Below, one piece after another: positions 8,873 through 24,697 of a stretch of 46,109 bases of DNA (position 1 is its first letter; every line of letters begins with the position of its first letter). The stretch spans positions 1-46,109 of the forward strand of contig CANFOZ010000017.1 of assembly GCA_947448795.1 (NCBI GenBank), in the 5' to 3' direction. The notes beneath the pieces were generated by a model that saw only the letters and a program-made list of their open reading frames with translations, was not told where the DNA came from and searched no databases. A program made the translations under genes and the position numbers. The DNA is from Bacteroidota bacterium. GTDB taxonomy: Bacteria; Bacteroidota; Bacteroidia; AKYH767-A; JAHEYN01.

Positions 8873-9508
8873 TTATTGAAGAAATGGATTGTGCGTTTTC
8901 TCATGTCCAATTGTTGTGGAGGGGCCATGTCCGGGGTGAACAACAGTTTCATCGGGCAGTGGCCAAAGCTTTTGGCGGATGGAGTTTAGCAAGGTTTGGT
9001 GTTCGCCGCCTGGTAGGTCGGTGCGGCCTATACTCTCATAAAAGAGCACATCGCCAGCGATGAGTTGTTTGGTTTCTTTGTTGAAGAACACAACGCTGCC
9101 AGGTGAATGGCCTGGGGTGAAAAAAATGTCTAGCGTGGTGCTTCCAAAAACAATCGATTGGCCCTCGTTTATAAACTTCGCAGGAGCTGGTGATGGCTCG
9201 GCCGGCACACCATACATCCGAGCAACATCCATTAATGCGTCGAGCATTGGAAGGTCCAGTTCATGCATCTCCAAGCCTAGACCAAAGGTATTAGCCACCC
9301 ATTTGTTTCCTAAAACATGGTCGATGTGGCAATGCGTGTTAAGCAGTTTAACGGGTTTCAGTTTGTTGTCTTGCAGGTAGCTCATTAACTCTAGGCGTTC
9401 GTCTGCGTTAGCGCATCCTGGGTCGATGATAACGCATTCGCCCGTTGCATCGGACAATACATAGGTGTTTTCAGAGAAGGGATTGAAAGTAAAGGACTTG
9501 ATGTGCAT
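8873..9508 (-). CDS. MBL-fold metallo-hydrolase (glyoxalase II-like)
   Basis: I take MHIKSFTFNPFSENTY as the true start. The ORF-track start at 9556 adds 16 residues with no family match. This gives 211 aa. The metal-binding motif THCHIDH is at residues 58-64, PGHSPGSVVF supplies the next His, IAGDVLF the bridging Asp, and HPGHGPST the last His. This is a complete di-metal site of the hydroxyacylglutathione hydrolase-like subgroup. Such proteins act on thioesters or are persulfide dioxygenases; the sequence alone does not decide. It runs convergent to the YceI gene and is divergent from the large barrel gene. Confidence 0.9.
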   Translation of the reverse strand: MHIKSFTFNPFSENTYVLSDATGECVIIDPGCANADERLELMSYLQDNKLKPVKLLNTHCHIDHVLGNKWVANTFGLGLEMHELDLPMLDALMDVARMYGVPAEPSPAPAKFINEGQSIVFGSTTLDIFFTPGHSPGSVVFFNKETKQLIAGDVLFYESIGRTDLPGGEHQTLLNSIRQKLWPLPDETVVHPGHGPSTTIGHEKTHNPFLQ

Positions 9509-9567
9509 GTCTAAGGGTTTTTGTAAACATACAGCTTTTGTAGAAAATGCCTGCATCCGATACGCGC

Positions 9568-9594
9568 TTGTTTGCTTTTATTTGATTAAATTCG
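9568..9594 (+). promoter_or_regulatory. Possible promoter for the barrel/propeller gene
   Basis: TAAATTCG (one mismatch to TAnnTTTG) at 9587-9594 lies 8 nt before the chosen ATG, with a TTG 16 nt further upstream. This would give an almost leaderless mRNA. The spacing is short, so this is weak. Confidence 0.25.
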
Positions 9595-9602
9595 CAAGGT
9601 AC

Positions 9603-12600
9603 ATGCCCGTCATGCAAAGAGCCGGTTCCTTTTTCTCCACATTCTTTCTTCGCCTCGTCGTTGTTGCGTTCCTTTTGGTTTGCATGGCTCCAACGTTAGC
9701 GAATGCCCAGTTCTATCAGGGGTATCAAATGAATTTTGGCAAGAATAGGTTGCAGTATAACGATCTTTTTTGGACCTTTTATAGGCAGTCGCGATTTGAT
9801 GTCTATTCGTATCAAGGAGGGCAGGAGCTAGGCGATTTTGTGCGCAAAGCGGCCGGTGAGCACCTCGACGACATCGAGCGCCGCTTGGATTACAAGTTGG
9901 ATGGGCGCGTTCAGTTTATTGTTTTTAATAAACTGTCGGACATGCGTCAAAGCAATATCGGTTTAGTGACGGAAGAACCTTTCAACATTGGCGGCACAAC
10001 CAAAATTGTTGGCAACAAAATATTTTTGTACTTCACTGGCGACCATGCTCAGCTGCAAGAGCAGATTAGCTATGGGCTTGCACAGATTATGATCAATCAG
10101 ATTTTATATGGTGGCGACATTAAGAATGCCTTGCAAAATGCAGCTTTGCTCACCTTGCCTGATTGGTACATAACGGGTTTATGCGCCTATCTTTCGAAAC
10201 CCTGGGATGCCACCATCGACGATCGCGTGCGGGATGGAATCATCAACAACACCTATACCAAATTCAGCCGCTTAACTGGTGAGGATGCGCGCTATGCGGG
10301 GCAGTCTGTGTGGGCATTTATTGCGGACAAGTTCGGTGACGCATCCTTGTCGAATTTGCTCTACATGACACGAGTGAACCGCAATATCGAAAGTGCTTTC
10401 TTGTTTGTTTTGGGTATCAATTCGCGCGGACTTTCAGGAGCTTGGTACGATTATTACAATGTGCGCTATGCCCAAGATACTGTTAAGCGTATTACGCCAA
10501 TGTCTTCAATGCGTATGGGTAAAGCCGCTGTCAAACAAAACTACCAAATCAAGCTTTCACCTAGCGGCGATCGTCTTGCTTGGGTGAGCAACGATCATGG
10601 AAAATACGCTGTGCGTGTGGTCGATCTCTCAACGAATAAGCGCACTACGATCAAGAGAAAGGGCTATCGTAGCGTCGAGCATTTGACCGATGTTTCTTTT
10701 CCTGTGCTTGCCTGGAGTCCGGATGGTAAAACAGTGTCGCTCGTTTGCGAAGAAGTAGGTAAAGTATGGCTGGAACAGTTCGATCTTGAAAAAAAGGAGA
10801 GCAACAAGAGTCAAATTTTTAATATCGACAAGGTGTTGGATATGGCTTATTCCGACAATGGGAAGCTGCTTGTTATGTCGGCCGTAGTAAAAGGACAATC
10901 GGATGTATTTGTTTACAACACGCAGTCGCGGACTATGGATAACATCACCAACGATCGCTATGACGATTTTAATCCGCGTTTTGTGCAAGGCTCCCGGAAA
11001 ATTGTTTTTGCTTCCTGCCGTTTAAGTGATAGTATTGCTGTTTCCCGCAAGGATACCTTGCCAGGAATGACGCATACAGATCTATTCTTGTATGACTACA
11101 AAGGAAAAGCGCCGGTGTTGCAGCGCATCACGGCTACGCAAAACATAAACGAGTCCATGCCAACCGAGCTAGACAGTAGCCATCTTGTTTTTATTAGCGA
11201 TGCTAACGGCGTTCGGAATCGCTACATCGCTCATCTTGACAGCATACTCAGTTTTGTGGATACGATTGAGCACTACCGCGACAAAATAGATGTGTGGCCT
11301 GTGACGGATTATAGTCAAGGCATTATCAGTCAAGACATAAACGCCAAGCGAACCAAGATGGCGCAGTTTCATTACATCGAAGGTAAAGTACGAATGGTTA
11401 TTGTTGATGCGCCTTCAACTTCGAGGCTCGAATCGACTTCTTTGCAGGAGACCCCATTTCGGCTAAAGCAAAAACTAGCTGGAATGACAAGCGATGCCGC
11501 TGATAGAGTGCAAAAACCCGTCGTAATAGATGTTCGATCACCGATGCCTGGTTTAGATTTAAAAAATACTAGCTCGACTCCCTATTTTCAAAACGAGTTC
11601 CAGTATTTATCCACCGTTGCGGATACCATAAACCGAAATGGGCAACAAGCTGCGGTAGCAAGCAAGGATAGCATTTATCCACCGTCCATTAAAAAGCAAC
11701 CAGGAGTTTTAAAACGCAATTACAATACTGCTTTTGGCTCAAGTTACTTGCAGCTCCAATTGGACAACAGCTTACTTAGTCCTACTTACCAGTTATATGC
11801 CGGAGGCGGTCCGGTTACCTTTGGATCGGGGATGAATCTAAAAGCGTCTATAGCCATTAACGACCTCTTCGAAGATTACCGAATTACAGGCGCAATTAAA
11901 ACGTCTAATGACTTTCGAACACTTGGATATTACATTAGTGTAGAGAATCTAAAACATCGCCTCGATAAGCAATTGACATTCTATCGCGAAGGACGTATGT
12001 ATACTTTCGATGGATCGAACACCAAGATACGCGTGCAGACCAATGAACTGCGCTATCAATTGAAATACCCCTTTAGCGAGGTCTCTTCGGTGCGCACTAC
12101 TTTTGGTTTCAGAAGCGATCGAGCCGTTTATTTATCGACCGATATCCAGAATCTTCAGGTACCAAACTATTATGATAATTATCTGACCTTTAAAACAGAG
12201 TATGTTTTTGATAACACGATCAGTCGAGGATTAAATCTGTACCAGGGAATTCGCTTTAAAGCATTCTTTGAAATTATGCAGGAAGACGACTTGACTTTTG
12301 AAAACAACATACCAAAAACGATCAAGTTAAACAAGCCGATGTATGCTCCTGGCTTTGATTTTAGACACTATCAGAAAATTCATCGCGATATTATCTGGGC
12401 CAATCGCATCGCTGCTGCCACCTCTTTGGGTGAAGGTAAAATAGTATACTATTTGGGTTCGACGGATAGTTGGTCTAAGCCTCAGTTCAACTATTCCATC
12501 CCAATCGACAATTCGCAAAACTATGCCTTTCAAGCCTTGGCCACCAACCTGCGTGGCTTTCAGCAGAACATTCGAAACGGCAATTCTTTTGCTGTAATAA

Positions 12601-14568: not shown

Positions 14569-16758
14569 TTAGTTCCCTAGTTCCGACATGAACTTGATCC
14601 GCATCAAGCGAATATCCGTGCTTGAATAATCGTTTTCGCCAAGTTCAATCAATGCAGCTTCAACAGAATCATTATCGGCCGACTGGAAGTATTCATACAC
14701 TTCTTGTTGGCGTTCTTGATCGATAATGGTGTTGATGTAATAACTGATATCGATACGCGTACCTGAGCCAACGATAATCTCAATCTCGTCGAGCACCGCA
14801 TCCGTTTGAATACCGCGTGCTCGTGCAATATCAGGCAAGCCCAACTTGCGATCGATGCTTTGAATAATTTGAATCTTCTGAATCGATTTATTGGCCACCG
14901 ATTTGATGATCATATCTACAGGTCGCTCGATCTCTTTTTCTTGCACATACTGTGCAATGGCTTCCACAAAGGCTTTGCCAAATTTCATGGCTTTCCCTGC
15001 GCCAACACCGGTGATGTTTTTTAATTCATCGATGGTGATTGGATATTGAATGGTCATCTCCTCTAAGGAGTTTTCTTGAAAGATTACAAAAGGAGGAAGG
15101 TTGAGCTGTTTGGCGATTCGTTTGCGCAGGTCTTCAAGCAGTGCGAAGAGTTCGCTGTCGGCCGCGCCAGCAGACCCTTGTGGCGGGTTTTCGCTGTCCT
15201 CATCCATCTCGATACCTTCGTAATCGTGATCTTTGGTAAGCATGAAAGAAACCGGGTTGGCTAAGAATGCGCGCCCAGCGTCGGTAAGTTTTAGCAGCCC
15301 GTAATTTTCGATGTCTTTTGAGAGTAATTCTTCAAGCACCGCTTGTCTTACCGCGGCATTCCAAAACTTCTCGTCGTACTCTGAGCCTTCCCCGAAGATT
15401 TCGAGTTTATGGTGGTCGTATGATTTAACCTGCGGCTCCGCTTTACCCATTAAGATATTAATGACATGCTCGGCAACAAATTTTTCTTTGACGATATTCA
15501 CCACTTCCAGCAGCTGCGCTATTTCTTCCTTGCCTTCGAATTTTGTTTTTGGATGCAGGCAATTGTCGCAGTTGCCACAATTTTCGGTGGTGTACACTTC
15601 TCCGAAATAGTGCAAAAGTTGTTTCCTGCGGCAGGATGATGCTTCAGCGAAAGCGACGGTTTCCAACAACAGTTGTCGGCCAATATTTTGTTCGGCCACC
15701 GGTTTGTTGTTCATGAATTTCTCCAGCTTCTCAATGTCTTTATAGCTATAGAAACAGATGCATCGACCTTCGCGTCCGTCACGTCCGGCACGCCCTGTTT
15801 CTTGGTAATATCCTTCTAGTGATTTCGGGATGTCGTGGTGAATGACAAAGCGCACATCGGGTTTATCGATACCCATTCCAAAAGCAATGGTAGCAACGAT
15901 AACATCGATATCTTCTTTAAGAAACTGGTCTTGCGTTGCACTGCGCACCGAAGCATCAAGTCCGGCATGATAAGGCAGGGCTTTGATGCCATTTGCAATG
16001 AGCATTTGGGCTACTTCTTCTACCTTTTTGCGGCTTAAGCAATAGATGATGCCTGATTTGCCTGCGTTATTCTTTACATACCGCACAATTTCTTTTATCA
16101 CGCCAACCTTTGGGCGAACCTCGTAATACAGGTTCGCACGGTTGAAGGAGGCCTTGAATACGTTGGCATCCATCATGCCTAAATTTTTCTGAATGTCTTG
16201 TTGCACCTTCGGTGTGGCGGTAGCTGTGAGGGCTAGGATAGGGACCATTCCGATCCGTTCGATGAGCGGCCGCAGACGGCGATACTCGGGTCTGAAGTCG
16301 TGCCCCCATTCGGAGATACAGTGCGCTTCATCAATAGCGAAAAAGGAAATTGGGATGTCGTGTAAAAAATCGACATTCTCTTCTTTTGTAAGCGACTCGG
16401 GTGCTACATAGAGCACTTTGGTGCGTCCCGATTTGATATCCTTGCGTACTTGTGTGATCTCCGTTTTCGTTAACGAGGAGTTCATAAAATGCGCCACGGC
16501 ATCGTCTGTACCAAATCCGCGCAGCGCATCGACTTGGTTTTTCATCAAGGCAATGAGTGGGGAGATAACAACCGCTGTTCCCTCACTGATTAACGCCGGA
16601 AGCTGATAGCAGAGCGATTTACCACCTCCCGTTGGCATGATAACGAAGGTGTCTTTGCGATCTAAAATGCTTTGTATAATGGCTTCCTGCTCTCCTTTAA
16701 AGGTATCAAAACCAAAGAAACGAAGAAGGGAGGCGGATAAGGGTTCAGCAGTGGGCAT
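14569..16758 (-). CDS. recQ: RecQ ATP-dependent DNA helicase
   Basis: 729 aa, somewhat longer than E. coli RecQ (about 610). Domain order: superfamily 2 helicase with Walker A MPTGGGKSLCYQLPA (41-55), the DEAH box (143-146) and the aromatic-rich loop CISEWGHDFRPEYR; helicase C with HAGLD and QETGRAGRDGREG; zinc domain with CRRKQLLHYFGE and CGNCDNC; winged helix; HRDC (about 525-600); and a C-terminal extension of about 120 residues (SYYINTIIDQERQQEVYEYF). This is the Bacteroidota-type RecQ with a helix-rich tail. It is a 3'-5' helicase for recombination and fork repair. It is divergent from the glycosyltransferase gene that opens the glycan locus. Confidence 0.96.
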   Translation of the reverse strand: MPTAEPLSASLLRFFGFDTFKGEQEAIIQSILDRKDTFVIMPTGGGKSLCYQLPALISEGTAVVISPLIALMKNQVDALRGFGTDDAVAHFMNSSLTKTEITQVRKDIKSGRTKVLYVAPESLTKEENVDFLHDIPISFFAIDEAHCISEWGHDFRPEYRRLRPLIERIGMVPILALTATATPKVQQDIQKNLGMMDANVFKASFNRANLYYEVRPKVGVIKEIVRYVKNNAGKSGIIYCLSRKKVEEVAQMLIANGIKALPYHAGLDASVRSATQDQFLKEDIDVIVATIAFGMGIDKPDVRFVIHHDIPKSLEGYYQETGRAGRDGREGRCICFYSYKDIEKLEKFMNNKPVAEQNIGRQLLLETVAFAEASSCRRKQLLHYFGEVYTTENCGNCDNCLHPKTKFEGKEEIAQLLEVVNIVKEKFVAEHVINILMGKAEPQVKSYDHHKLEIFGEGSEYDEKFWNAAVRQAVLEELLSKDIENYGLLKLTDAGRAFLANPVSFMLTKDHDYEGIEMDEDSENPPQGSAGAADSELFALLEDLRKRIAKQLNLPPFVIFQENSLEEMTIQYPITIDELKNITGVGAGKAMKFGKAFVEAIAQYVQEKEIERPVDMIIKSVANKSIQKIQIIQSIDRKLGLPDIARARGIQTDAVLDEIEIIVGSGTRIDISYYINTIIDQERQQEVYEYFQSADNDSVEAALIELGENDYSSTDIRLMRIKFMSELGN

Positions 16759-16894: not shown

Positions 16895-17623
16895 ATGTTA
16901 AATTCCTTTTCGCGGATCGCAGTCATCATTCCAGCATTCAATGAAGAGCAGGCTATAGCTGATGTAGTGCACCAGATACAACAAGTGGCAATTCGTGAGC
17001 ATTTGCAGCTTACAGTTGTTGTGGTTAATGACTGCTCGCGCGACAACACCGCTTCAATCATAGATGCACTGCCTTGTGTTTCTCTTCATCTGCCTGTCAA
17101 TTTAGGCATTGGCGGTGCTGTACAAACAGGCTTTCGGTATGCTTTCCGCAAAGGATATGATTATGCAGTGCAAGTAGACGGCGACGGTCAGCATCCAGCT
17201 GAAGCTATTCCAGCACTATTGAAAGCAATAGAACAGCAAGAGGCTGACGTGCTGATTGGCTCTCGATTCATTGCAAAGACAGGCTTTCAGAGCTCCTTTA
17301 TGCGCCGTGTGGGGATTCGTTTTTTTTCACATCTCAATTATTTACTTACGGGTATTCGTGTTGCTGATAGTACCTCAGGATTTAGAATGCTTAATCGTAA
17401 GGCATTAGCAGTGGTTGACGATTATTATCCAGACGAATATCCGGAGCCAGAGGCCATCATCTTATATGCTTTTAACAATCTCAAAGTGGCTGAGCATCCT
17501 GTTGAAATGCTAGAACGACAAGGAGGTGTTTCTTCTATCAACTCGCTCAATTCCTTCTATTATATGTTCAAAGTAAGCATAGCGATTCTGTTTACTTATA
17601 TCCGAATCCGCAGAAAAAAATAA
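16895..17623 (+). CDS. Family 2 glycosyltransferase, DPM1-like soluble form
   Basis: 242 aa. Nucleotide-binding start IAVIIPAFNEEQAIADV, then VVVNDCSRDN, GIGGAVQTGFRYAF, and the metal-binding DxD in VQVDGDGQHPAEAIP (D95-D97), with IGSRF and STSGFRMLNRKAL. This pattern is typical of dolichyl/polyprenyl-phosphate mannosyl- or glucosyltransferases. It lacks the two C-terminal membrane helices of GtrB. Two nt downstream is a DUF2304 gene, a common partner of such GT2s, which may supply the membrane anchor (inference). It is the first gene of the plus-strand block of five. Confidence 0.93.
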   Translation: MLNSFSRIAVIIPAFNEEQAIADVVHQIQQVAIREHLQLTVVVVNDCSRDNTASIIDALPCVSLHLPVNLGIGGAVQTGFRYAFRKGYDYAVQVDGDGQHPAEAIPALLKAIEQQEADVLIGSRFIAKTGFQSSFMRRVGIRFFSHLNYLLTGIRVADSTSGFRMLNRKALAVVDDYYPDEYPEPEAIILYAFNNLKVAEHPVEMLERQGGVSSINSLNSFYYMFKVSIAILFTYIRIRRKK

Positions 17624-17625
17624 AC

Positions 17626-17970
17626 ATGGAACGTATACAAATCATTGCTATTGTTGGCAGTTTGCTCTTCCTCGGCTTTATCGGTCGTTTGATCATCAAA
17701 GGTAAATTGCGCGAAGAATATGCCATTGTATGGATCATCTGCACGGCTATTCTCATTCTCTTTTCTTTTTGGCGACACGGACTCGATTTGGTTGCTTATC
17801 ACCTCGGTGTATATTCACCGCCGAATACTGTTTTCATGGGAGCTATCATTGCTGTGCTCGTTTACCTATTGCATTTATCAATCGTGGTTTCTAAATTACA
17901 AGCACAGAATAAAACCATGGCACAAGAGATGGCTTTGCTAAAGAATAAGCTTGAGCAAAAACAGGCATGA
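17626..17970 (+). CDS. DUF2304 family small membrane protein
   Basis: 114 aa with three hydrophobic helices (about 4-22, 34-50, 65-88) and a charged coiled tail (KLQAQNKTMAQEMALLKNKLEQKQ). The IIKGKLREEYAIVWI motif after the first helix is the hallmark of DUF2304. Members usually sit directly after a DPM1-like GT2 gene, as here, and are thought to act with it at the membrane. No enzymatic residues are visible. It overlaps the next gene by ATGA. Confidence 0.9.
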   Translation: MERIQIIAIVGSLLFLGFIGRLIIKGKLREEYAIVWIICTAILILFSFWRHGLDLVAYHLGVYSPPNTVFMGAIIAVLVYLLHLSIVVSKLQAQNKTMAQEMALLKNKLEQKQA

Positions 17971-18362
17971 ATCAGCAGCATCAATCGGAGGCACTTGTGT
18001 TTGGTCGATATCTTTTAAACGGAATTGAACCTGTTGATAGCGCCGTGGTTTTGTATGTGCAAGCCATGGAGCGTTTGGCGATAGTTCCTTCATCAGACGA
18101 ACAGCGCCTGTTGGATCGATTGCTTCTTCATCCTATGCTGCTGCCCTTGGTGGATGCAGGTTTGGCCCTTGCTAATCCGCGATCAGTGATTCGTCGGAAG
18201 CTTTTTGTATTATCTGCAATACTCGAAACACAACCTGCTCACGCTGCAGTCTATCTTCCTTATGAGCATAGCCCTGTCCAACATCTAAAAGCGATATTCA
18301 GTGCGGTCTTCGCTGGTCTTCGAGCTGCTTTCGGATTTATCCTTGTAAAGCTGATAGCATGA
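17967..18362 (+). CDS. Unknown 131-aa protein in the GT2-DUF2304-GMC cassette
   Basis: I do not recognise it. It begins MNQQHQSEALVFGRYLLNG, is mainly helical with many Leu and Ala (VVLYVQAMERLAIVPSSDEQRLLDRLLLHP), has a middle LANPRSVIRRKLFVLSAILE, and ends with a hydrophobic segment (about 110-131) that could attach it to the membrane. It overlaps both neighbours by 4 nt (ATGA on each side), so it is translationally coupled to DUF2304 and to the GMC oxidoreductase. The tight coupling suggests a small partner subunit of the oxidoreductase, comparable to the small subunits some GMC dehydrogenases have. That is inference. There is no Tat motif. Confidence 0.75.
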   Translation: MNQQHQSEALVFGRYLLNGIEPVDSAVVLYVQAMERLAIVPSSDEQRLLDRLLLHPMLLPLVDAGLALANPRSVIRRKLFVLSAILETQPAHAAVYLPYEHSPVQHLKAIFSAVFAGLRAAFGFILVKLIA

Positions 18363-19987
18363 AGGATAAGCTCTTTGACTTCATCGTAGTTGGCTCTGGA
18401 TGCACGGGAGCTATGGCTGCGCAAACCTTGGTGGAACATGGCGCAAAGGTGCTTATGTTAGATGTTGGTAAAAAAGACGAGCGCTATAAACAGGTAATAC
18501 CCGATCTTGATTTTACCTCTATTCGCGAACAAAAAAACGATCAACACCGTATTTTTTTAGGTGATGATTTTGAGGGTATACCTACACCGGGAGTCAAGAC
18601 GGGTGCGCAGTTGACGCCGCCACGTCGATACCTTATGGAGGGTGTTTCGCGTTGGTTGCCCTTGCTATCAGATACTTTTTTTCCTATGGAATCGCTTGCC
18701 TATGGTGGGCTAGGCGGGGGCTGGGGCTTGGGTTGCTGCGTTTTTTCAGATGCTGAGTTACAGCAATCCGGCATGGATTCTCAACGCATGGCGGAGGCTT
18801 ATCAAACCGTTTCGCGCCGCATAGGAATTGCATCGGCCAGTGACGACGCGTTGCCGTTTACCTCAGGCCCTTTAAAGGATGTTATGCCCGCCATCGAAAT
18901 AGATCGTGGTTCTTCGCGTCTTCTGAGTACTTATAAAAAACAAAAGAAAGGTTTCAATAGTCGTGGTTTCTATATGGGAAAGCCCGCACTGGCCTTGCTT
19001 ACCGAAGACAAAGGCGATCGCAAGAAGCTAGATTATCAAGACATGGAATTTTATAGTGATGCAAAAAAAAGCGCCTATCGTCCATGGATAACGGTTGATG
19101 AATTAAAAAAGCACAACAACTTCACGTATGTATCCGAATGCTTGGTGATGCGTTACGCGGAGCTCGGTGATGCGGTTTCTGTTTCTGGAATACATACTGA
19201 AACTGGCGCTAATATTGAGTTTAAAGCCCGTAAGTTACTGCTTGCTCCAGGTGTATTAGGAACCGCTCGAATTGTTTTGCGCTCAGCGAATGCAGTTGAT
19301 CAGCGCTTGCCTTTGCTATCCAACCCATACTGTTATGTTCCCTGCATTCAGCCGCGTTTTTTAGGCAGCGCGATGGATCGTCACACTACGGGCATGGCAC
19401 AGCTTTCTTTGTTTCACGATCCACGTGGAGATCAGTCGGATGTGGGCATGGCATCTATATACAGCTATCGATCCTTGATGCTCTTTCGGGTGATGGAGCA
19501 AGCGCCGCTAGCTTTTCGTGATTCCCGCAAATTGTTTCAGTACTTGTTGCCGGCTATAAAAATCATGGGCATTCACCACACTGAAAAACCAGGTGATCAG
19601 AAGTATCTTCAGTTGCAAAAGGCTTCAACCTATAGTGGCGATAGTTTAAAAGCGGTATATATTCTTTCAGAAACTGAAAATCAGAAGGTGCTTAGTCGTG
19701 AGCAGTCTTTTGTAAAAGCGATGCGCAGCTTGGGTTGTTATGCATTAAGTAAAATAGACCCGGGTCACGGTTCAAGCATTCACTATGCGGGCACACTGCC
19801 TTTTTCAGAGAAAGAGGGAATGTTCACCCTTGCAAAAGATGGTCGTTTGCATGGATCGAAAAGCGTGTATGTAGCCGATGGATCTGGCTTTCGTTTCTTG
19901 CCGGCTAAAGGTTTGACGTTGTCCCTCATGGCCAATGCGCATGCTGTGGCTAAGGGATTATTAAACACTGAATCAGTTCATCGATAA
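18359..19987 (+). CDS. GMC family FAD-dependent oxidoreductase
   Basis: 542 aa. N-terminal FAD fold FIVVGSGCTGAMAAQTLVEHGAKVLMLDVG with GxGxxG. SLAYGGLGGGWGLGC matches the second GMC region, and LLLAPGVLGTARIVLRSA is the third. The C-terminal GHGSSIHYAGTLPF holds the catalytic-His region, followed by VADGSGFRFLPAKGLTLSLMANAHAVAKGL, the GMC closing motif. Members oxidise an alcohol or sugar hydroxyl. The sugar-biosynthesis context suggests a carbohydrate substrate, possibly lipid-linked (inference). No signal peptide, so it is cytoplasmic. It starts within the stop of the 131-aa gene. Four nt separate it from the SDR gene. Confidence 0.9.
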   Translation: MKDKLFDFIVVGSGCTGAMAAQTLVEHGAKVLMLDVGKKDERYKQVIPDLDFTSIREQKNDQHRIFLGDDFEGIPTPGVKTGAQLTPPRRYLMEGVSRWLPLLSDTFFPMESLAYGGLGGGWGLGCCVFSDAELQQSGMDSQRMAEAYQTVSRRIGIASASDDALPFTSGPLKDVMPAIEIDRGSSRLLSTYKKQKKGFNSRGFYMGKPALALLTEDKGDRKKLDYQDMEFYSDAKKSAYRPWITVDELKKHNNFTYVSECLVMRYAELGDAVSVSGIHTETGANIEFKARKLLLAPGVLGTARIVLRSANAVDQRLPLLSNPYCYVPCIQPRFLGSAMDRHTTGMAQLSLFHDPRGDQSDVGMASIYSYRSLMLFRVMEQAPLAFRDSRKLFQYLLPAIKIMGIHHTEKPGDQKYLQLQKASTYSGDSLKAVYILSETENQKVLSREQSFVKAMRSLGCYALSKIDPGHGSSIHYAGTLPFSEKEGMFTLAKDGRLHGSKSVYVADGSGFRFLPAKGLTLSLMANAHAVAKGLLNTESVHR

Positions 19988-19991
19988 AGAC

Positions 19992-20849
19992 ATGTACGGA
20001 AAGGTAATTATAAGTGGAGCCAGTGGATTTATAGGAGGCCATTTGGTGCGCCATTTTCTTGCTAAAGGATGGACCGTGATTGCGCTCGTTCGGGTATTTC
20101 CTTCTAAACCATTGAAGGACGTGGAGTATCGCTTATACGATTTGCTTCAGGCGCCCGCTGTTGATTTGTTTAGAGAAGCGGCGTATTTTATTCATGCGGC
20201 CTATCTGCCCAACAATTTTGATTGCAATGTTACAGGCGCGAAGCAATTGTTGGCTTGCAGTCGTCAAGCTAGTTTGCGTCGCAATGTGTTTATATCTAGC
20301 TTCTCATCATCTGTTGATTCCGAATCGCTTTACGGTCGTCAAAAGTATGCCATAGAGCAGCTTTTTTGTAGGGATACAGACACGATTGTTCGTCCCGGTG
20401 CGGTTTTAGGCGATGGTGGTTTGTTTAGCAAAATGAATGCGCATATAGCGGCCGGAAAACGCATTCCATTGATACAAGGTGGAAGGCAGCCCATGCAAAC
20501 CATTGCTGTTGATGATCTTTGCTTGGCGATCGAGCATATTCTTTTAAAAGACCTGTCAGGCGTGTTTAGTGTTGCAGAGCCGGAGTCCTTAACCTATAAG
20601 GAATTTTTTCTCTTATTGGCAGCAATGAATAGTCTTTCGGCTCGCTTTCTGAAGGTCCCTTATCGCTTGTTAGATATGCTTCTTTGGGTGTCAGAAAGCC
20701 TAGGGTTTCATTTGCCTGTCGGGCGCGAAAATCTTAGGGGTTTGATCGCTTTACGTTACCGCGAAACGAAAGGCGATTTACACCGACTTGGTATAGTCAT
20801 TAAGGATTGCAAAGCTTCGTTGGAGGCCTTGTTTAGCAATACTAAATAA
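19992..20849 (+). CDS. NAD-dependent epimerase/dehydratase (extended SDR)
   Basis: 285 aa. Rossmann motif ISGASGFIGGHLVRHF (7-22) with GxxGxxG, catalytic serines in FISSFSSSVDS, and the YxxxK pair Y114/K118 in LYGRQKYAIEQ. Positions in VRPGAVLGDGG and the C-terminal SVAEPESLTYKEFF match extended SDRs. All catalytic residues are intact. The substrate is unknown; it may act with the GMC oxidoreductase just before it (oxidise, then reduce = epimerise), which is speculation. It ends the plus block and converges on the carbamoyltransferase gene, 7 nt away. Confidence 0.9.
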   Translation: MYGKVIISGASGFIGGHLVRHFLAKGWTVIALVRVFPSKPLKDVEYRLYDLLQAPAVDLFREAAYFIHAAYLPNNFDCNVTGAKQLLACSRQASLRRNVFISSFSSSVDSESLYGRQKYAIEQLFCRDTDTIVRPGAVLGDGGLFSKMNAHIAAGKRIPLIQGGRQPMQTIAVDDLCLAIEHILLKDLSGVFSVAEPESLTYKEFFLLLAAMNSLSARFLKVPYRLLDMLLWVSESLGFHLPVGRENLRGLIALRYRETKGDLHRLGIVIKDCKASLEALFSNTK

Positions 20850-20856
20850 GTCTATT

Positions 20857-22617
20857 TTAGGCCTTGAGTGGATCCAAACTTTTTTCGTCACCCGGTTTGG
20901 CCACCACATAATTACCCATCACAAGATAATCCATATCTGCTCGCTCGAAGCTATCAATAGCGTCGTATGGTGAGCAAACGATGGGTTCTCCCTTGATGTT
21001 AAAAGACGTGTTGATGAGCACAGAGTAGCCTGTTTCTTTTTTGAATGCGGTAAGCAAAGCATGCATCTCTGGGTTCTCTTCCTTGTTAACGGTTTGTATT
21101 CGAACAGAATTGTCAACATGGGTTATGCCAGGCAGTTTTCCAAGCATTTCGGGCTTCACATTGTACACCATGAGCATGAATGGATTTGGGAAGTCCGAGT
21201 CAAAATACAATCCACAGTCTTCTTCGAGCACGATAGCAGCAAACGGTCTGAATCCTTCACGAAACTTCACACGAGCATTCAGCGTGTCTTTCATTGTCTC
21301 GATTGTCGGACTGGCTATGATGCTACGGTTGCCGAGGGCGCGTGGACCGAATTCGAGTTTGCCTTGGAACCATCCGAGGATTTTTCCTTCGGCAAGTTTT
21401 TTAGCGGCGAACTCATAGTTTAGGGGCGACTGCAGATATGGAAGGGTATGTTTCTTTAGCTCAGTCTCGTATTCGTTGGTGTTGTAACTTGGACCGTAGA
21501 AAGCCGTTTTCATAACAAACTTGCGTTTGCGATTGAGTATAGCATGGTTTAGGTACAAGGCGCTGCCGATAGTTGTTCCGCTATCGCCAGCTGCGGGTTG
21601 TATATAAATATTTTTAAAGAGGCCCGACTTAGCAATAAGTCCGTTGGCAACGCTGTTTAAGGCAACGCCCCCTGCCATACAAAGGTTTTCAGAGTTGGTT
21701 TTCTTTTTAAGGTAGGCCGCTGCATGAAGAAAGAAATCCTCAATGATGTGTTGCGCTGCTGCTGCTACATTAAGTTCATGCTCTGTCCAATCTTTCCCTT
21801 CTGTTTTCGAAGGACCAAAAAGATTTTCGAATTTCTTTGTCACACCGGTTTTGCGCGTATAGTGGTAGCAGAAGTAACTCATGTCGAGACGAAACCCGCC
21901 ATCGGATGTGAACGTGATGAGTTTCTTCATCATTTCGTATTCGGGGGTGTCGGGATTGCCATACGATGCAAGGCCCATTAATTTTCCTGGACCAGAAATA
22001 AGCTTGAAGCCCAGATGTCTAGATATCGCTTGGTAAAAAGCGCCGATAGAGTGCGGTGTTTCAACAGTCGCGAGTTTATTGATTTGATTTCCTCGTCCAT
22101 GTGCAAGCATGCAGGTGGTCCATTCGCCAGCGCCATCTACAGTAAAGATTGCGGCATCTTCGTGTTCGGATGAAAAGAACGAGCTAGCAGCATGGCAGAG
22201 GTGATGTTCGAGAAGGTGGAACTTGAACTTTGGTTTCTTGCTTTCAGGAAACAAGCGTTCTAGTGTTTGCGGCAGTTTACGCATATCACCTAGGTAGTTT
22301 AGCATTCCCAAGTTTTCTTCTACCGTAAAACTTTTCTGCTCCATCAAAAGTTGTGGCAGTTTATCCCAATACTTAAGCATGAATACGGGAATCTTTGAAT
22401 ACGAAATAGACGGTTTCCAAAAAAAGGTGACATGGTCAATATCACTCAGTTTAAGGTTGCCGTATTTTAAACACTCGGCGATGCCCATGACTGGAATCCT
22501 GCCATCGTGCTTTTTACGATTTAATCGTTCTTCTTCGACAGCGAATACTACTTCGTCGTCAATGATAAGCGCCGCAGCCGAGTCGTGTCCGAAACAGTTG
22601 AATCCTAATATATTCAT
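20857..22617 (-). CDS. Carbamoyltransferase (NodU/CmcH/TobZ family)
   Basis: 586 aa, usual for the family. It transfers a carbamoyl group from carbamoyl phosphate (through carbamoyl-adenylate) to a hydroxyl, often of a sugar. Seen: the start ILGFNCFGHDSAAALI, EEERLNRKKHDGRIP, the metal-binding EHHLCHAASS (H138-H142) and FTVDGAGEW (D161) of the Kae1-like domain, LCMAGGVALNSVANG, and the C-terminal-domain signature GWFQGKLEFGPRALGNRSI and LINTSFNIKGEPIVCSP. Last gene of the long minus-strand block, 22 nt after the TMTC-like gene. It probably decorates the glycan made by this locus. Confidence 0.95.
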   Translation of the reverse strand: MNILGFNCFGHDSAAALIIDDEVVFAVEEERLNRKKHDGRIPVMGIAECLKYGNLKLSDIDHVTFFWKPSISYSKIPVFMLKYWDKLPQLLMEQKSFTVEENLGMLNYLGDMRKLPQTLERLFPESKKPKFKFHLLEHHLCHAASSFFSSEHEDAAIFTVDGAGEWTTCMLAHGRGNQINKLATVETPHSIGAFYQAISRHLGFKLISGPGKLMGLASYGNPDTPEYEMMKKLITFTSDGGFRLDMSYFCYHYTRKTGVTKKFENLFGPSKTEGKDWTEHELNVAAAAQHIIEDFFLHAAAYLKKKTNSENLCMAGGVALNSVANGLIAKSGLFKNIYIQPAAGDSGTTIGSALYLNHAILNRKRKFVMKTAFYGPSYNTNEYETELKKHTLPYLQSPLNYEFAAKKLAEGKILGWFQGKLEFGPRALGNRSIIASPTIETMKDTLNARVKFREGFRPFAAIVLEEDCGLYFDSDFPNPFMLMVYNVKPEMLGKLPGITHVDNSVRIQTVNKEENPEMHALLTAFKKETGYSVLINTSFNIKGEPIVCSPYDAIDSFERADMDYLVMGNYVVAKPGDEKSLDPLKA

Positions 22618-22639: not shown

Positions 22640-24697
22640 TTAATTGCCTTGTAATCCTTTTTTTGATACCTCTAGATTGCCTTTCAGTTGGCGATGGTCG
22701 GGGTTGTGCTTTAAGCCGGTTTCGCATGCCGTTATGGCTTCATTCCACTTGTGAAGCTCGTTGTATGAGCAGCAGATATTGTTGTATGCTGCATCCCAAT
22801 TTGGTTTCAGTAGCAAGGCTTGTTCACACATTTTTATACAGTCCTCGTAGCGACGGGCATTGTAATACTGCAGACTTAGATTAAGATAGGCTTCAGGAGT
22901 GTGTGCAGTATTTACAAGCTTCTCAGCGGCTTCAAGAGGAGATTGAAGTCCACCGGGTGTGGCTAATAATTCATTCATCAGGTTCTGTGAAGAAATATGA
23001 CCTGGGGCCAACTGAAGTGCTTGCTGCGCCATTCCTAATGCCTCTTGATAACGACCGCAGTTTTTTAGGTAATTACCATAAAAGTAATAACTCTCCGGGT
23101 TGTTGGCATCGAGTGCAATGGATTGTTTGAAATGCACTTCAGCCTCGGCTTTGTTGCCCATGGCGTTTTTCAATATGCCTAAGTTGGTTTGTAGGTAAGA
23201 GTAGTTAGGAACATAAACAAGGGCGCGGTTGAAATAGTTTAGTGCTTCCTGATATTCTCCTTTACGCATTTTTGCTAAGCCGTAGTTCATTAGTCCACGT
23301 CCGTTTTGTGGGCTTTTTATAGTTACATCGTACCATAAACCATCTTCGTTGTTCCACACTTTGTTGCGTTGATAGGTTCCGTAACAATGCGCAGCGATGA
23401 GCAAACCGCCGAGCATTAGAACTGCAGCACGAGTGCTTGAAGATTGCATAATTTTGTGTTCTTTGTCGGTCAAAAAAAGTGCTATGGACCAAGTCACCGC
23501 CAGCATCAATCCAACGAATGGGAAAAAGATACGGTGGTCGTTGAGTACCTCTGCCAGTGGCATAAAGCTAGAAGTCGGTGCCAAAGCTAAAAGAAACCAA
23601 ATAAGACCAAAGCTGATGGGACGGGTTCGTGCATCATTCGAGGTTCTTACAATAGTATAAATCATACCGATTAGGAAGGCTGTGCCCACGATGACGCGGT
23701 CGTCAAAGATGTTGCGAATAGGAGTCCAGTCTGTGTCTGCGCTTAGACCTGTTGGAAGGAAGAACGTCAAAAAGTAGTGAACAATTACAAAGGTCTGTGT
23801 TTGCAGGTAGGTGAGGCGGTCGACACCGCCACCGGTCCACAAAGGAGGCAGCATGTGTATGATGAAATACACCAATGCGATGCAAATAGCAATAACAGGC
23901 AAAACACGCACAAAGGTATGACTAAGTGCTGAGCGGTTTTTTGATGAAAATAATTCACCAATAGACATCTTCTTTTCAAAGAAAAGGATGTAGAAAAACA
24001 ACAATGGCGCAAAGATCATAGCGGGTTCTTTTACGAACATGCCGATGATGATCGGTATAAGATAAAGGTAGTATTTACGAGATATAGCGGAATACATATA
24101 CATCGCGAAGCCAATGATTACGGCTACTGTGGATAGCGAATCGGTACGCGAGATGATGTAATTAATTGTTTCCGCGTTCGATGTAAGGACACCATACCAG
24201 AGCGCACCGAACAGCGCGAAATATTTGTTCCAGTGGTGTTTGTGGGCGAGGTTGAAAATCTTGTAGAAAATAAAATACATCAGCACGAGCTGAAGTAAGT
24301 ACCAGATGAAAGTGGAGAGGTGGAAATAAAACGTTGAATTGAATCCATCACCACTCAATTTTTGACCAATCCAATAGTCGATAGCCAAGGTTGTTGTGGT
24401 CATCGGTCGATATGCTTGGTTTGCTGGCAATGAGCTACCGGTGGTTACATCTTTAAAGAAACGCGGGATATTGCCTATGTCACGAATATAGAGGTTGTTA
24501 CAAATGGTATGCGTATCGTCGAAGTGGAACTCGTTTTTGAAGTGGTTGCTATACGCCAATGTAACCACAGCAAGCATCAGAAAGATGTATTTCATCATTC
24601 CGAGGTGTGTTTTTAATTCTTCTTTTTGCTCTTCACTTTTGTTATTAGAAAACAAGCGGATGATGTTTTCAGCAAAGATGGATGTGTTCTTTTCCAT
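22640..24697 (-). CDS. TMTC-like polytopic membrane protein with C-terminal TPR repeats
   Basis: 685 aa. After a short cytoplasmic N-terminus, about ten membrane helices span 33-450. The first extracytoplasmic loop has NEFHFDDTHTICNN (D60-D61), the acidic motif of GT-C enzymes, followed by FFKDVTTGSS. TPR repeats fill about 460-685 (MNYGLAKMRKGEYQEALNYFNRAL, TNLGILKNAMGNKAEAEVHF, AYNNICCSYNELHKWNEAI). The architecture matches eukaryotic TMTC O-mannosyltransferases and their bacterial relatives. Probable lipid-P-sugar-dependent glycosyltransferase acting outside the cytoplasmic membrane. The two nt between this start and the upstream transketolase stop indicate an operon. Its TPR tail is similar to those of two other proteins in the locus. 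Confidence 0.85.
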   Translation of the reverse strand: MEKNTSIFAENIIRLFSNNKSEEQKEELKTHLGMMKYIFLMLAVVTLAYSNHFKNEFHFDDTHTICNNLYIRDIGNIPRFFKDVTTGSSLPANQAYRPMTTTTLAIDYWIGQKLSGDGFNSTFYFHLSTFIWYLLQLVLMYFIFYKIFNLAHKHHWNKYFALFGALWYGVLTSNAETINYIISRTDSLSTVAVIIGFAMYMYSAISRKYYLYLIPIIIGMFVKEPAMIFAPLLFFYILFFEKKMSIGELFSSKNRSALSHTFVRVLPVIAICIALVYFIIHMLPPLWTGGGVDRLTYLQTQTFVIVHYFLTFFLPTGLSADTDWTPIRNIFDDRVIVGTAFLIGMIYTIVRTSNDARTRPISFGLIWFLLALAPTSSFMPLAEVLNDHRIFFPFVGLMLAVTWSIALFLTDKEHKIMQSSSTRAAVLMLGGLLIAAHCYGTYQRNKVWNNEDGLWYDVTIKSPQNGRGLMNYGLAKMRKGEYQEALNYFNRALVYVPNYSYLQTNLGILKNAMGNKAEAEVHFKQSIALDANNPESYYFYGNYLKNCGRYQEALGMAQQALQLAPGHISSQNLMNELLATPGGLQSPLEAAEKLVNTAHTPEAYLNLSLQYYNARRYEDCIKMCEQALLLKPNWDAAYNNICCSYNELHKWNEAITACETGLKHNPDHRQLKGNLEVSKKGLQGN

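Follow-up and report, generated by a model that had tools for sequence, protein, structure and literature searches.

A family of small helical proteins paired with a GMC-fold flavoenzyme and an SDR reductase, mostly in Bacteroidota

The window, by which we mean the whole 46,109-nucleotide stretch of DNA analysed here, carries genes for a GT2, a DUF2304 protein, a protein that we call X, a GMC enzyme and an SDR in that order, followed by convergent genes for a carbamoyltransferase and a membrane-TPR protein. The features considered are:

16895-17623, forward strand: GT2 resembling polyprenyl-phosphate sugar synthases (PF00535, E 5e-27)
17626-17970, forward strand: DUF2304 small membrane protein, GacJ/WpsB-like (PF10066, E 7e-28)
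17967-18362, forward strand: X, a 131-aa helical protein (open ORF, homologues, AlphaFold2 model)
18273-18359, forward strand: last helix of X, hydrophobic and basic, residues 103-131 (composition in 22 members)
18359-19987, forward strand: GMC-fold flavoenzyme, 542 aa (co-occurrence with X; fold class via a homologue)
19992-20849, forward strand: SDR (epimerase-type) reductase (TGxxGxxG and YxxxK present)
20857-22617, reverse strand: carbamoyltransferase, context (PF02543/PF16861)
22640-24697, reverse strand: protein with multiple membrane spans and TPRs, context (TPR matches)

The X reading frame is open over 131 codons from an ATG. Its start (17967) lies in an ATGA that also holds the DUF2304 stop TGA (17968-17970), and its own stop (18360-18362) falls within the ATGA carrying the GMC start (18359). 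The coordinates thus agree on both sides with the overlaps given in a preliminary description of this locus, which had also named the two neighbours correctly, DUF2304 by PF10066 and GMC by a weak Pfam match together with a Foldseek search of a homologue. The GT2, SDR, carbamoyltransferase and TPR genes have matches in Pfam and NCBIfam too. The same description recognised no family for X, and this holds for Pfam, NCBIfam and PHROGs, while a search of the PDB with X or its profile returned no sequence relative above noise. Twenty-two homologues compared with Pfam likewise gave no match above noise, X does not match PF10066 as its neighbour at 17626-17970 does, and a scan of the genome contigs with the X sequence alone gave no match. 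Prediction by AlphaFold2 from X and 22 homologues yields an all-helical model (pLDDT 92, pTM 0.82) with seven helices (residues 3-16, 24-37, 43-54, 56-69, 74-88, 90-96 and 103-130), for which the best Foldseek match in the PDB has an E value of 3.7 and a probability of 0.05. Could X be a chance ORF? Its homologues, at 20-40% identity, share its position in most relatives and its fold is predicted with high confidence; therefore, X is a real gene. It represents a family of small helical proteins that has not been described before and has no detectable relatives in sequence or fold.

A first search for X homologues covered 60 relatives and gave five clear ones. Profile searching of 395 genomes of the class, with strong matches defined as E < 1e-10, identified X in 34. 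Further homologues were reached through GMC loci in named records; X is present in Flavobacterium lacisediminis (L130), in a Saprospiraceae MAG (L129) and in Sediminibacterium (L127), and homologues are found in about 43 genomes, mostly Bacteroidota. Their identity to the window protein is 20-38%, and their alignment contains the invariant residues Y15, Y30, D63, R76 and E87 and the nearly invariant A67, I85, L86 and G123. Proteins of ~460 aa in six genomes (G265, G135, G069, G238, G185 and G356) match the X profile weakly and were treated as chance; the one inspected, from G135, looks like a protein of the outer-membrane efflux type. Two MAGs with complete X-GMC-SDR sets bear labels outside Bacteroidota, namely Blastocatellia (L108) and Krumholzibacteriota (L123), reflecting either horizontal transfer or mis-binning.

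Among 35 loci, 28 have X and GMC as direct neighbours, mostly with a stop and start that overlap, and the SDR is next in line in 24 of these 28. Just upstream of X lies DUF2304 in most loci, and in the others a different GT2 (L013, L053) or a polysaccharide deacetylase (PF01522); by inspection, the GT2 of L013 carries C-terminal membrane spans of its own. A RecQ gene (14569-16758 in the window) diverges from GT2 in the window and in about half of the linked loci, a conserved arrangement for which no functional reason is obvious.

The enzyme encoded after X has a GxGxxG FAD motif near its N-terminus and an invariant histidine of the catalytic type (His475). Its match to Pfam GMC_oxred_C (E 2e-4) is below the cut-off of that family, and the fold was read from a homologue at locus L117. 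In Foldseek, the GMC part of the L117 model best matches FAD-GDH alpha subunits (8grj_B, 6a2u_B) and fructose dehydrogenase (E 1e-25), followed by pyranose 2-oxidases and C-glycoside oxidases, all of which act on sugars. By the fold of the homologue's model, the FAD motif and the conserved C-terminal histidine, the window enzyme belongs to the GMC superfamily. A 3Fe-4S cluster is unlikely because the family alignment contains no invariant cysteine. At one locus (L051, about 9410-10998, in the single-contig genome G097), the GMC frame is split by a frameshift, which makes it a pseudogene or a sequencing error.

Does X belong with this enzyme? When a GMC profile was run on the same 395 genomes, X was found in 34, the GMC subfamily in 35, both in 34 and neither in 360, with none of the 34 X genomes lacking GMC. 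The sole genome with GMC only (G332) is 72% complete, and its GMC is truncated at a contig edge. Fisher's exact test gives p of about 2e-48 for this overlap, a value that ignores relatedness among the 395 genomes. In another 396 genomes, sampled across the phylum and partly overlapping the first set, either gene occurs in the window's genome only. Over all searches, 43 of 43 genomes with X also have GMC, and X alone is found in none. The preliminary description had proposed that X is a stoichiometric partner of the GMC enzyme; the partnership is well supported by co-occurrence at the level of genomes (34/34 X genomes with GMC, 34/35 GMC genomes with X), with a stoichiometry and a physical interface that are putative. 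Moreover, the two genes come and go together within genus g6 (both in G008, neither in G005 or G014), genera g32 (G162/G050) and g38 (G225/G056) and family f1 (G000/G001), which points to several independent events.

The same description had held that homologues of X away from GMC genes would speak against the partnership. Such homologues exist in nine genomes (G008, G087, G116, G149, G180, G264, G352 and those of L125 and L128), but each of them keeps GMC elsewhere, so that the pairing is strengthened by its survival without linkage. G008 has its GMC on a different contig from X, and the GMC loci L125 and L128 have no X nearby, X being found elsewhere in the same genomes. Downstream of the GMC-less X of G008 (contig C109), tandem-repeat DNA with FWRSP/FWRNP-like and MLTLRPI-like repeats occupies positions 9986-10573 and 18301-18630 of locus L010, and may mark the rearrangement that parted X from GMC. 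The genomes of L132, L133 and L134 encode distant GMC proteins (about 25% identity) and have no X; thus, the pairing is confined to the GMC subfamily of the window. At these three loci, two of them from Verrucomicrobia, the distant GMC gene forms a pair with an SDR gene; the combination of oxidase and SDR is older or wider than the partnership with X.

The SDR at 19992-20849 is a third constant member that was missed in the preliminary description. Of 36 X genomes, 35 have this SDR subfamily; among the X-less genomes checked, only G332, which has GMC, contains it at a comparable score. X, GMC and SDR are therefore a constant set. The SDR weakly resembles HpnA and sterol SDRs in NCBIfam. DUF2304 behaves differently: it is found in 30 of 36 X genomes, is absent from G054, G085, G133, G162, G225 and G336, and occurs without X in five genomes. 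It cannot be a universal partner of X, and is a preferred rather than an obligate one. In NCBIfam the GT2 comes closest to the polyprenyl-phospho-GalNAc synthase PpgS and to dolichyl-phosphate hexose transferases, but reaches the cut-off of none of them.

Inspection shows no signal peptide at the start of X or of GMC, and in the alignment the N-terminus of X shows neither a twin-Arg signal nor a hydrophobic stretch; both proteins should therefore be cytosolic. The C-terminus of X is distinctive. Among 22 divergent homologues, acidic residues make up 2 of 659 positions (0.3%) from residue 103 on, compared with 10.1% in the body, and 20 of the 22 have no D or E in their last ~29 residues. The net charge of the tail is usually +3 to +5, its hydrophobicity or amphipathicity is high, and the HeliQuest-type D is about 0.68 or more in nearly all 22. 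A composition that is acid-free, basic and hydrophobic is typical of membrane-binding helices, and from its sequence the tail is a probable membrane tether, be it by lying in the membrane plane or by spanning it. The preliminary description had X perhaps attaching the enzyme to membrane-bound, lipid-linked sugar; membrane attachment gains support from this conserved helix, which would be the attaching part. As a pseudo-cofold, a read-through chain of X and GMC from L117 was modelled from a 30-row alignment, with the X stop TGA read as Gly and followed by the GMC start. This chain reached pLDDT 81 and pTM 0.77, but the pLDDT of the X tail was 53-69 instead of about 85, a loss of confidence that leaves the model neutral as to an interface between X and GMC; docking may be blocked by the one-residue linker itself.

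Which known systems does this set resemble? FAD-dependent glucose and fructose dehydrogenase complexes consist of a GMC alpha subunit, a small gamma or 'hitchhiker' subunit of the PF13618 type and a cytochrome c. As in those complexes, a GMC sugar oxidoreductase is encoded alongside an obligate small partner, and of the traits of a gamma subunit X has the obligate pairing with the GMC catalytic subunit (34/34 genomes of the class, 43 overall). Unlike in those complexes, there is no Tat signal, no cytochrome subunit and no invariant cysteine for a 3Fe-4S cluster, and the proteins are apparently cytosolic. We considered and rejected X as a PF13618 gamma subunit: neither X nor 21 homologues match PF13618, hhalign gives a probability of 0.1 against 15 PF13618 proteins, and the Foldseek search of the PDB returns no protein with the gamma-subunit fold (6a2u/8grj/7w2j).

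A second likeness is to DprE1/DprE2, which oxidise and then reduce a polyprenyl-phosphate sugar and co-purify (PMC9993113). Here too a flavoprotein oxidase lies beside an SDR reductase in a polyprenyl-phosphate sugar setting, the latter as judged from gene context. The flavoenzymes differ, as DprE1 has the VAO fold and the enzyme here the GMC fold, so that only the logic of oxidase plus SDR is common; to our knowledge, the DprE1/E2 system has no X-like protein. The GT2-DUF2304 gene pair immediately upstream of X resembles GacI/GacJ and WpsA/WpsB, in which the DUF2304 proteins GacJ and WpsB activate undecaprenyl-phosphate-GlcNAc synthases (PMC8327497, PMC10821137), and undecaprenyl-phosphate sugars are substrates of epimerases in three-component systems (PMC11127046). 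Descriptions of those pairs include no X, GMC or SDR, and the likeness does not assign the product sugar here; among the papers searched, none links a GMC oxidoreductase with DUF2304 or with the glycosylation of undecaprenyl. The lipid-linked sugar that the preliminary description ascribed to GT2 and DUF2304 is plausible from this context and precedent, but it has to accommodate the six X genomes that lack DUF2304.

What, then, might X do? We give an even chance to the reading in which X is a dedicated accessory subunit that tethers a cytosolic, sugar-oxidising GMC enzyme at the inner membrane, the site at which this enzyme and the SDR would remodel a sugar linked to polyprenyl phosphate. GT2, aided by DUF2304, would make the polyprenyl-phosphate sugar. 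The helical body of X (residues 1-100) would bind the GMC enzyme, and its C-terminal helix (103-131) would be embedded in, or rest on, the inner leaflet of that membrane. GMC would oxidise a hydroxyl of the lipid-carried sugar, with oxygen or a membrane acceptor such as menaquinone taking up the electrons. The SDR would reduce or further process the keto sugar in an epimerisation-like chemistry. The modified lipid-linked sugar would then be exported and transferred. More tentatively, with a chance clearly below even, GMC oxidase and SDR reductase, held at the membrane by the new family, would epimerise or remodel the sugar as an independently evolved counterpart of DprE1/DprE2.

Other roles for X can be weighed against this one. 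The GMC sugar dehydrogenases that the present enzyme structurally resembles are exactly those that require a small subunit for functional expression (PMC6719666), and the obligate pairing would suit a hitchhiker-like chaperone acting in folding, FAD insertion or stability of GMC, whose tail would be an oily surface contacting the enzyme rather than a tether. We hold this to be unlikely: a strongly basic, acid-free tail is typical of membrane contact and not of a protein interface, the lack of Tat and Sec signals in X and GMC leaves no role in secretion, and X differs from the gamma subunit in both fold and profile. It seems quite doubtful that X instead works on the polyprenyl-phosphate sugar synthase formed by GT2 and DUF2304, as its adaptor or regulator, and brings GMC and SDR to this synthase. 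The split genomes speak for such a role and count against tethering, since X usually stays with DUF2304 (in six of the seven split genomes of the class and in the genome of L128) rather than with GMC, which is usually near the SDR; X is also translationally coupled to DUF2304 in the window. Against it stand the six X genomes without DUF2304 and the five genomes that have DUF2304 but not X, whereas no X genome lacks GMC.

The substrate may also be questioned. The weak likeness of the SDR to HpnA and sterol SDRs, the promiscuity of the GMC fold and a tail that points to a membrane substrate would all be compatible with action on a non-saccharide membrane lipid, for example a terpenoid, a hopanoid or a quinone-like molecule, with the sugar genes nearby by coincidence. 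This is improbable given that the closest structural matches of GMC are sugar enzymes and that GT2, polysaccharide deacetylase, GNAT and carbamoyltransferase genes recur in the neighbourhood. Finally, X might be a passive operon member linked with GMC by shared cluster inheritance only. Mirror-tree correlations are similar for all cluster genes, and the partial correlations give GMC no preference over SDR or GT2, which also counts against the tethering reading; most loci, moreover, are linked. Yet both genes are kept in the nine unlinked genomes and are jointly absent within the same genera, and DUF2304 from the same cluster shows no such strict pairing. Passive membership is already disfavoured, and we regard it as barely credible.

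The work marks out a new protein family and assigns it one specific partner that can be tested. Were the tethering mechanism true, a DprE1/DprE2-like route of sugar remodelling would have been assembled from unrelated parts, GMC enzymes would have gained small partner subunits more than once, and unusual surface-glycan sugars would be predicted in the Bacteroidota that carry the set, including a named Flavobacterium strain. The genes around the module add some context. The carbamoyltransferase is also found near it in L012, L067 and L073, and relatives of the membrane-TPR protein, whose putative architecture is like that of extracytoplasmic glycosyltransferases, lie near it in many X loci. In variant clusters at L013, L044, L057, L059 and L130, X is preceded by a polysaccharide deacetylase gene (PF01522 + DUF3473) and a GNAT acyltransferase gene lies downstream of the SDR, which suggests that the module may remodel an amino sugar that is N-acylated.
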